Source: Candidatus Nitrosopumilus sp. | Lineage (GTDB): Archaea > Thermoproteota > Nitrososphaeria > Nitrososphaerales > Nitrosopumilaceae | Assembly: GCA_011055585.1 (NCBI GenBank) | Contig: DRGT01000001.1 | Coordinates: forward strand, 1-5,280 | Direction: 5' to 3' | Length of the DNA: 5,280 nt | Part shown: positions 2,378-5,280 of the stretch, piece by piece | How the letters are laid out: the number at the start of each line of letters is the position of its first letter | Numbering within the stretch: the stretch's first letter is position 1 | Program-made: the position numbers and the translations under genes | The notes under the pieces: generated by a model | Database searches by the model: none | Told to the model about the DNA's origin: nothing | The model's input: only the letters and a program-made list of their open reading frames with translations

Positions 2378-2566
2378 TTACTTGCACTTTTTCTTATGTT
2401 TTCTTAAGGCTTCTGGATAATTAAATTCGGCTCCACAAAACCTACATTTTTCTTTATTTTTTTTATGTGCTTTATCTCGATGTTTAATTAGCCTTTCAGA
2501 ATTAGAAAATTCTATTCCACATTCTTTACACTTTGTTTTATCCGCGCCAAAGCTAAAAAAACCCAT
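2378..2566 (-). CDS. Small protein with two C2H2-type zinc fingers
   Basis: A 62-aa protein, ATG at 2566 and TAA at 2378-2380. Finger 1 is C13-x2-C16-x12-H29-x4-H34, with the hydrophobic core residues F20 and L26 of classical C2H2 fingers. Finger 2 is C41-x2-C44-x12-H57-x3-C61, with F48 and L54; the last ligand is Cys, so it is a C2HC finger. The fingers are separated by a Lys-rich linker (KKNKEK), and the protein ends CK right after the last ligand. The N-terminus (MGFFSFGADKTK) is short and aromatic. High Lys/Arg content suggests nucleic-acid binding; small C2H2 proteins are common in Thaumarchaeota and mostly uncharacterised. The gene stands alone: its neighbours on both sides are on the other strand or uncertain. 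I see no convincing TATA box, though a TTCTAGAA palindrome lies at 2586-2593. Confidence 0.85.
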   Translation of the reverse strand: MGFFSFGADKTKCKECGIEFSNSERLIKHRDKAHKKNKEKCRFCGAEFNYPEALRKHKKKCK

Positions 2567-2820: not shown

Positions 2821-3069
2821 ATGGATAGTTGTGACACTAGTACTCGTGCTTATAAGAATGGAAAAACATTTGATCAATGCAGAGATATTGCAGAAAAGAC
2901 TACTCTTGAGCTGAAAAAGCAATTTGAGCAAAAAGAAAGAATTCTGTGGAGTGAACTTTTAGATTTAGTGGACCATGATGAACTAGTTTACAAGCTTTCA
3001 CTAAAGTTTCTAAGACGAGACGGTTTTGATATTGGAAATAGCAAAAGACCTGAGATAAGAAAGTTTTGA
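2821..3069 (+). CDS. Hypothetical 82-aa protein, probably co-transcribed with the Cys-pair gene
   Basis: ATG at 2821 and TGA at 3067-3069. No family recognised. The protein looks soluble and mostly helical: residues 16-41 form a charged helix (TFDQCRDIAEKTTLELKK onward), residues 42-65 a second helix-like stretch with WSELLDLVDHDELVYKLSL, then a basic tail (FLRRDGFDIGNSKRPEIRKF). There are two isolated cysteines (C4, C20) but no metal motif. The start lies 20 bases after the stop of the 42-aa Cys-pair gene; no Shine-Dalgarno or separate TATA box is visible, so joint transcription is likely. It ends 15 bases before the convergent tRNA-like gene. The DNA-binding look of the basic C-terminus is only an impression. 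Confidence 0.65.
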   Translation: MDSCDTSTRAYKNGKTFDQCRDIAEKTTLELKKQFEQKERILWSELLDLVDHDELVYKLSLKFLRRDGFDIGNSKRPEIRKF

Positions 3070-3084: not shown

Positions 3085-3159
3085 CGGACTAGGAGGGCTT
3101 CGATCCCTTGAACTGGCTGTCCGAAGCCTCCAGCACTATTCAGACTATGCAACGAGTCC
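3085..3159 (-). tRNA. tRNA-Arg(TCG)-like gene, divergent or decayed
   Basis: On the minus strand 75 bases fit a tRNA frame. The acceptor arms are GGACTCG and CTAGTCC with a G discriminator and no encoded CCA. T8 and A14 are present, the D stem is GCAT/GTGC, and the anticodon loop is CTTCGGA with T33, anticodon TCG and G37. The variable region is five bases ending in C48, and the T arm is AAGGG-ATCGAAG-CCCTC. Several positions are abnormal: acceptor pair 6:67 is C/U, anticodon-stem pairs 29:41 and 30:40 are A/G and G/A, pair 49:65 is A/C, G19 is A and T54 is A. Flanks look like those of a working gene, with a TATA-like box about 27 bases upstream and a T-rich stretch downstream. It is therefore either an unusual tRNA-Arg or a decaying copy. 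The short variable arm rules out tRNA-Leu, so it is not the substrate of the adjacent synthetase. Confidence 0.55.
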
Positions 3160-3195
3160 AGACAGTTTTAGATATTCTGGACTAAATATCTGTCT
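3160..3195. repeat. Imperfect palindrome between LeuRS and the tRNA-like gene
   Basis: AGACAG (3160-3165) is mirrored by CTGTCT (3190-3195), and TTTAG (3167-3171) by CTAAA (3182-3186). A partly overlapping 7-base inverted repeat pairs GTCCAGA (3156-3162, reaching into the tRNA acceptor stem) with TCTGGAC (3176-3182). It may be a regulatory site, part of the tRNA promoter or a leader hairpin. Confidence 0.35.
3182..3189 (-). promoter_or_regulatory. TATA-like box of the tRNA-like gene
   Basis: The minus strand reads ATATTTAG, centred about 27 bases before the first base of the tRNA-like gene (3159). It lies between the LeuRS stop and the tRNA, so the tRNA need not depend on LeuRS read-through. 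Confidence 0.4.
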
Positions 3196-3202
3196 TGGAA
3201 AA

Positions 3203-5197
3203 TTACTCAATCAAAATTGCCGGCTTGAAGGGCCTTGCATGTCTAGCTTTTCCTTTAGGATCATAAATTCCTGAATCAGATTCAGAAAAAACTTGAACAT
3301 CAGCTCCAAAATCAGCTTTAGTTATACTGCTTAGCTCAGATGCAATCAAAGCTTTTTCATCAAACTCGGCAGTCTCTAGTTTAGTCTTTCTAATCTCAAC
3401 TGGTTCAGACAAAATATCCTTGATAGTCCTTTGAACAAAGTCTGGATTCTTTTTTATATCAGCAGTTTCTGGATTTGCAATTAATTCTTTCATAATTGCA
3501 CCCATGTTTGTCTGTCCTGCCATCACCTTTTCTAAAATAAAGTGATATGCTTTAGATTTGAAGGCGTTAGCTGTGTAAATCATAATTTTTTTTGGAGTCA
3601 TCTTTGTTACCTTGATGATATTTGCAACATCATCCATGATTGATTTTAGAAGCTCTTCGGACTGAATAGCTTGAGCATCAATGACGTCATCTGAAACAGC
3701 TGGCCAGCTACTCTGAGATACCAAACCTGAATTTCCAAGCTTTTCCCACATTTCTTCAGCTATATGTGGAGCAAACGGAGAAAGCATACAAACTCGTTTA
3801 GTGTTAATTTCGTGCAAAACTCCTGAATAATCATCTCTTCCCTTTGCTTTTGCACGTTTAAGATACCATTGCAAATCACCTTCAAATGAGAATAAATTAC
3901 CATGAAGACCCTCTCGCAGCCTCATTTTCTCTATACTGGAACTGACTCCAGAAATCAGAGACTGTAATTTGCTTAAAATCCACTTGTCTTCTGCTTGCAA
4001 ATTATCTAATTTACCAGGTTTTAGCTTGGAGCATTCATCCAGTAATGAAATCAGCTTGTTCTTTATTCCACTAACAGATTCTAAATTAAAATCAGCATCC
4101 TGTAACAGCTCAGCTGAAATTATTATTGCCAATCTAATTGGATCTGCACCGTAATCACGAATAGCTTGTCGTAGAGGAATTATATTTCCCATGGATTTAG
4201 ACATTTTTTTGCCATCCATTAGTACAGAACCATTTACAACAATCTGGAGTGGCCAATTATTCTCAGGAAAAATTGCAACATGGTTCAAAACAAAAAACGT
4301 CAGATGATTTGGAACCAAGTCACGTCCTGAATGTCTTGAATCTACTGGATAAAAGTAAGAAAACTCTTGTCTTATCTCATAAATAGTCTTGATTGAAACA
4401 TTACAATTTTTTGCAACAGCTTCAGCTTCGCCTTTTTCAAAAAAGACATATTCAAAAAATTTGTCTGTTAGGTTATCAGCTTTTAAGCTTCCATTATTCA
4501 CAAATTTAGCTAAAATATAATATGCCATGTATATTACAGAGTCAGATAAGCTTTCAACAATCCAGTCCTTATCCCATGGTAATTTAGTACCAAGTCCATG
4601 TTGTCTTGCACAAGCTCGCTCATGCAACCAACCAACAACATACTTGAACTCACCACGAATCTCTTGCGGCAAAATGCTCATGGAATCAAGACATTTTGTA
4701 GCTTGCTCCTTCCAAGCTGCATCGCCATAGTTTAGAAACCATTGATTTGTGAGAATTTTGACAACACATTCGGTTCCACAACGACACTTTACTGGAGAGT
4801 TTGTAAGCTCTAAGAGAATATCCGAATATTTTTTCTCAGCTAACCACTTTTTTATGGGATCCTTAGCTTCAGAAACCTTTTTTCCTGCAAACTGTTCGGT
4901 GTTTTGTTTTAGGACTCCGCCGTAGAACTCTTTTCCGTATATTTCGTCTGTTGCTTTTTCAAGCTTTGAGTCATTTTGGTCCTTTATCCCAAGCTTCTCA
5001 ACTGCCTCTTTAGCTGGAATCTCTCCATATCCCTCAGTTTGGATGATAGAAATAGGCTTGATTAGCTGCAATTCAGAGCCTTGAGGCTGATTTTTCTTAA
5101 AATCTACTAGAGCCTGATAGTCAAATGGTGCATGAGCAGGAACAGACATTACCAATCCAGTTCCAGTTTGAGATTCTACAAAACTAGCTTCCAGCAT
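3203..5197 (-). CDS. leuS: Leucyl-tRNA synthetase, archaeal type, N-terminal third missing
   Basis: LeuRS charges tRNA-Leu with leucine in the cytoplasm and hydrolyses wrongly charged tRNA. The frame gives 664 residues from the ATG at 5197 to TAA at 3203-3205, against about 950 for archaeal LeuRS; the missing part includes the HIGH-motif region and the first half of the editing domain. The ATG is not a true start: coding sense continues to about 5206 (Ser-Ile-Pro) and then hits TAG at 5207-5209. In order: editing-site stretch [20 protein letters not shown] (11-30) with the conserved Asp26; Cys cluster C138/C140/C144; WFLNYGD (153-159); [20 protein letters not shown] (190-209); [16 protein letters not shown] (287-302); signature KMSKS (331-335); anticodon-binding helical domain (about 380-530) with [12 protein letters not shown]; and an archaeal C-terminal domain to 664. 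All downstream motifs are intact with no frameshift, so the defect is only at the junction near 5200. Confidence 0.95.
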
Positions 5198-5280
5198 TGG
5201 AATTGACTAATACCCCCGTAAAATGTCGTTGTGGTACAGAATGTGTTGTAAAGATTCTAACTAATCAATGGTTTCTAAAC
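5197..5280 (+). CDS. leuS: Fragment of a second, inverted leucyl-tRNA synthetase gene (continues past window)
   Basis: From TTG at 5197 the plus strand encodes Leu followed by 27 residues that match residues 130-156 of the minus-strand LeuRS at 26 of 27 positions; only Ser133 is Thr here. It includes the Cys cluster (CRCGTEC) and the TNQWFLN segment. The matching DNA of the other copy is 4730-4810. By my hand count 15 of 81 bases differ, spread over 13 codons and synonymous except at the Ser/Thr codon. The frame is blocked upstream by TAG at 5185-5187 and similarity ends at Leu5197, so this copy also lacks its N-terminal part. The reading frame is open to the window edge. It is either part of another strain's gene joined in assembly or a diverged inverted duplicate. 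Confidence 0.8.

Follow-up and report, generated by a model that had tools for sequence, protein, structure and literature searches.

An inverted leuS pair at a thaumarchaeal contig end, almost certainly an artefact and probably a foldback read joined to a second lineage

The window analysed here, that is the whole stretch of 5,280 nucleotides, ends in two pieces of the leucyl-tRNA synthetase (LeuRS) gene, leuS, which stand head to head. This pair almost certainly arose as an artefact of sequencing or assembly, and not as a biological feature. Two thaumarchaeal lineages, called A and B below, are represented in the contig, and most probably a foldback read of lineage B (5043-5280) has been joined to a contig end of lineage A. 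Such an origin explains at once the 11-base overlap found at the joint, the B-like bases on both of its sides and the 81% likeness of the two arms.

The inverted repeat at the contig end

The last 84 bases of the window (right arm, 5197-5280, plus strand) encode part of LeuRS, as does the left arm on the minus strand (4730-4813). Compared with the reverse complement of the left arm, the right arm matches at 68 of 84 bases (81% complementary over 84 nt) and at 27 of 28 residues, the sole exception being an S/T exchange. The 16 differing bases comprise 14 at codon position 3 and two at position 1. After permutation of the right arm (200 permutations), at most 43 bases matched, as compared with the 68 observed, and the likeness of the arms is not a matter of chance. 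The head-to-head inverted pair announced in a preliminary description of this DNA is thus present; the figures given there (26 of 27 residues in agreement and 15 of 81 bases different) were correct to within one codon, and the minus-strand leuS frame does run into the TAG reported at 5207-5209.

The leuS fragment of lineage A and its neighbours

The minus-strand frame at 3203-5197 scores above the cut-off of the archaeal LeuRS family (TIGR00395, leuS_arch; NF008957), with 659 bits for a curated value of 648.5, and covers two thirds of an archaeal LeuRS, on the C-terminal side. The window encodes 667 residues of this protein. They differ at only three places from P0003, a full-length LeuRS of 956 amino acids encoded on another public contig, and at four from P0004, likewise a full-length relative encoded on another public contig. 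Both were obtained by a protein search, and their contigs measure 4,028 and 17,355 bases, respectively. All three differences from P0003 fall in residues 1-42, residues 43-667 being identical; the part at 3203-5042 (minus strand) thus looks like the C-terminal part of an ordinary archaeal enzyme, and is assigned to lineage A. The existence of these nearly identical proteins on other public contigs indicates that lineage A has an intact LeuRS elsewhere, and that the gene is cut short in this contig alone.

At the DNA level, the nearest relative of the window leuS in the 80 loci compared is also thaumarchaeal, with 81% identity (L001). The stretch 3203-5042 is about 80-81% like its counterparts in archaeon MnTg01 and in genome G005. 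When this stretch was searched against 250 genomes of the family, 50 of them matched at E values up to 1e-200, the best match reaching 81% over the full length and 82% in one partial match; the DNA of lineage A itself was thus not found among these 250 genomes.

The seven proteins encoded to the left of leuS were also compared with the loci. The minus-strand frame at 1-936, cut by the left end of the window, encodes a geranylgeranyl-reductase-like protein (TIGR02032, 56 of 158.8 bits, below the curated cut-off). Relatives of it occur in 59 loci, and in two of them they lie 3' of leuS on the same strand (L104, 81% identical; L054, 79%). A 62-residue protein with C2H2-type zinc fingers is encoded at 2378-2566 (minus strand; PF00096 above the gathering score). 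Its relative was found in a single locus, that of G005 (L098, 3316-3501; 74% identical), in a different place, upstream of leuS and on the opposite strand. Five small frames (1002-1307 and 1374-1655 on the minus strand; 1791-2066, 2672-2800 and 2821-3069 on the plus strand) gave no Pfam or NCBIfam match above the curated cut-offs and no tblastn match in the loci compared. Between leuS and the next frame, the stretch 3090-3170 shows, by eye, tRNA-like ends (GGACT...AGTCC). A tRNA-like or other RNA element at this place was rejected, ARAGORN and Rfam giving no match, even at E values up to 1.

The right arm and lineage B

The right arm has much closer relatives. It matches archaeon MnTg01 (L005) and G005 (L085) at 82 of 84 bases each, the next of the 80 loci being at 88%. 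The same picture emerged from the 250 family genomes, of which 161 matched the right arm at E values up to 0.001: G005 and the MnTg01 genome (G001) both reach 98%, and the next genome 88%. Since the right arm is 98% identical to the MnTg01/G005 clade, referred to as lineage B, and the stretch 3203-5042 about 80-81%, the two arms come from two organisms rather than from anciently duplicated copies of a single genome. The left arm is the lineage-A counterpart of the lineage-B right arm. By our estimate, the source organisms stand at roughly the distance of different genera. The involvement of two related organisms had already been proposed in the preliminary description; this proposal is upheld, and a misjoin is by far the likeliest cause of the pair.

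It had been considered as well that leuS was duplicated long ago, in inverted orientation, in a single genome, and that the copies then diverged synonymously. The near-identity of the two arms as proteins and the concentration of their differences at third codon positions would suit such an event. The copies should then be closer to each other than to the genes of other species, and the arms are not: the right arm shares 82 of 84 bases with the leuS of the other lineage versus 68 of 84 with the window's own copy, a difference on which the duplication was rejected. A second match to the right arm was found in none of 70 loci, each covering at most 14 kb of DNA. Among the 161 matching genomes of the 250, just three (G036, G225 and G241) match twice or more, always on separate contigs, and these may be mixed bins. 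The intact LeuRS of 956 residues found elsewhere and the single orientation of leuS in the loci, described below, likewise lend the duplication no support, and we regard it as extremely improbable. Of note, three different leuS genes are found on three contigs of Nitrosotenuis sp. CoA_2_bin.53 (L002, L004 and L023), and this bin may thus mix several thaumarchaeal lineages.

The 11-base joint

The two pieces overlap at 5196-5206 in an 11-base word, ATTGGAATTGA, which agrees with leuS whether read on the minus or on the plus strand. This overlap was absent from the preliminary description, as was the switch at 5041-5083 discussed below. The window extends just 74 bases beyond it. The word includes a TCA codon identical to that of MnTg01, at a position where P0003 has Met. 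In MnTg01, ATTGGAATTGA and its reverse complement are both found exactly in one leuS gene, 392 bases apart, and this pair is one of three 11-base inverted pairs within 1000 bases in the MnTg01 contig. In G005, the antisense copy of the word carries one mismatch. In both genomes the two pieces that meet at the joint lie in one leuS, on the same strand, with 392 bases between the 11-base words. Of 200,000 inverted joints placed at random in the MnTg01 gene, a single one had an overlap of 11 bases or more.

The loci show the same arrangement of the two pieces. All 70 loci that match both pieces (of 80 loci; ten did not match both) carry them on the same strand of leuS. The second segment is thus inverted with respect to its genomic orientation, in G005 and MnTg01 as in the 70 loci, and the joint carries a short complementarity, two features by which foldback chimeras are recognised. 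A query of 110 bases centred on the joint (5147-5256) matched 37 of the 250 family genomes at E values up to 1e-8. None of the 49 matches spans the joint, all of them ending at or before query base 60 or starting at or after base 50. In G005 and MnTg01, query bases 1-60 are matched on one strand and bases 50-110 on the opposite one, and what the two matches share is precisely the 11-base word. In the 80 loci, a junction query gave 55 matches, none of which extends by 12 bases beyond the overlap in both directions. The exact junction sequence was not found in the viral contigs searched.

These results bear on a real rearrangement, in which a cell of lineage A would carry, inside or beside its own leuS, a short inverted lineage-B leuS piece acquired by transfer. 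This piece might have been joined through microhomology, beside a segment of the cell's leuS altered by gene conversion, and an intact second leuS would lie elsewhere. Microhomology-mediated inversions do occur in cells, and the sequence taken by itself is compatible with such a history. Against it stand the essential nature of the gene, which would be broken at this copy, and the nearly identical intact LeuRS encoded on another public contig, together with the lack of any joint-spanning match in the 250 genomes and 80 loci and of any exact junction match in the viral contigs. We therefore consider a real rearrangement very improbable.

A probable hidden switch between the lineages

The bases just left of the joint probably do not follow the rest of the leuS fragment. 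The stretch 5043-5206 (164 bases, minus strand) is 95.7% identical to G005, the 1057 other 164-base windows reaching at most 89.8%, and 93.3% identical to MnTg01, with at most 87.2% in the 1676 other windows. The lower number of windows for G005 results from the requirement of at least 140 comparable bases per window. In steps of 41 bases from 5206 along the minus strand, identity to G005 is 0.93, 0.98, 0.93 and 1.00, then 0.78, 0.80 and 0.78; it falls from 1.00 to 0.78 at 5043/5042. The stretch is nearest lineage B, like the bases to the right of the joint (97.6% to G005), and it thus probably belongs to this lineage.

The protein points in the same direction. Where the window departs from P0003, at residues 1, 13 and 42 of 667, it has the lineage-B state in all three cases. 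P0003 and MnTg01 differ at 103 residues, for which the order in the window is B A B B followed by 99 sites in the A state; for the 76 residues that distinguish P0003 from G005, the order is B A A B B followed by 71 A sites. The last B site is residue 42 (codon 5083-5081), and the uninterrupted run of 99 A sites opens with residue 56 (codon from 5041). From this and from the likeness to lineage B, an in-frame switch between the lineages, that is a hidden chimeric joint, is probable between 5083 and 5041 (minus strand), leaving 5084-5206 (minus strand) as a leuS piece of lineage-B type. Residue 4 speaks against the switch, and in the comparison with G005 also residue 3, both being in the A state. 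Residue 1 falls within the overlap of 11 bases and hence gives no independent evidence; residues 3 and 4 are in the overlap or at its edge. P0010 and P0058, which are out of register and of different lengths, were left out of the position-by-position counts, and P0058 was then compared by alignment. For the same lack of register, L004 was left out of the ungapped 48-base table beyond the first two blocks, and L008 in the last three.

The switch is what separates the foldback from a direct misjoin, also an artefact, in which the minus-strand leuS of lineage A would be joined at 5196-5206 to the plus-strand leuS of lineage B without any second switch. This account, one of the versions put forward in the preliminary description, is the simplest one that can be given with two pieces, the right arm being clearly of lineage B and 3203-5042 clearly not. 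It also draws on the above-average conservation of 5043-5206 among members of the family: the window is 88.8% identical to L003 there, with at most 88.4% in its other windows, and MnTg01 is 88.2% identical to L003, with at most 87.8%. The likeness to G005 nevertheless exceeds that of all other windows, residues 13 and 42 match lineage B and not P0003, and the TCA codon of the overlap is that of MnTg01 where P0003 has Met. The direct misjoin is thus rather unlikely, while remaining the most serious of the competing accounts. As to the foldback, the preliminary description had held that diverged arms exclude an origin from one molecule. This is not supported, since the 164 bases left of the joint are nearest lineage B: the foldback can have taken place entirely within a single molecule of lineage B, and lineage A would then begin only some 160 bases to the left. 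The arms would differ because the left arm, the copy of A, lies beyond the switch, and the right arm is that of B.

Possible origin of the chimera

The foldback could have arisen during amplification or library preparation, when a 3' end copied from the lineage-B leuS, antisense strand, and terminating in ATTGGAATTGA, would have annealed to the complementary 11 bases situated 392 bases away in the same gene, on a same-sense strand. Extension from the annealed end would give a chimera that is folded back and inverted. Its reads (5043-5280, about 240 bases) may then have been linked to the co-occurring leuS of lineage A, either by the assembler or by PCR recombination, at 5041-5083, where the two lineages may have up to about 40 bases in common. 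Chimeric contigs arise in metagenome assemblies of related organisms. The in-frame switch between homologous leuS genes in a conserved stretch resembles them; in contrast, such contigs alone give no inversion.

The inverted joint has parallels among the chimeras of multiple displacement amplification, as described by Lasken and Stockwell (2007, PMC1855051). Of 475 such chimeras, 85% were inverted; more than 70% showed 2-21 complementary bases, and the inversions mostly fell within 10 kb. Here also the second segment is inverted and the intervening stretch lost, and both the complementarity (11 bases) and the spacing (392 bases) lie within these ranges. Simple self-priming hairpins were judged a minor route in the account given there. 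Unlike the chimeras it describes, the present contig probably passes into another lineage some 160 bases away from the joint, for which an extra joining step would be needed. Inverted-repeat chimeric reads have also been reported from sonicated libraries and attributed to a PDSM model (PMC10908179). They share with the present joint a natural short inverted repeat and a part read from the opposite strand; as presented in that report, they are soft-clipped reads of human capture libraries, whereas the joint considered here is a contig end.

Were the arrangement real, it would amount to an unusual transfer into an essential archaeal gene. The pair is of value mainly as a caution: when inverted arms at the end of a contig have diverged, this does not prove that two templates met at the inversion, since a foldback with a homologous switch hidden next to it looks the same.
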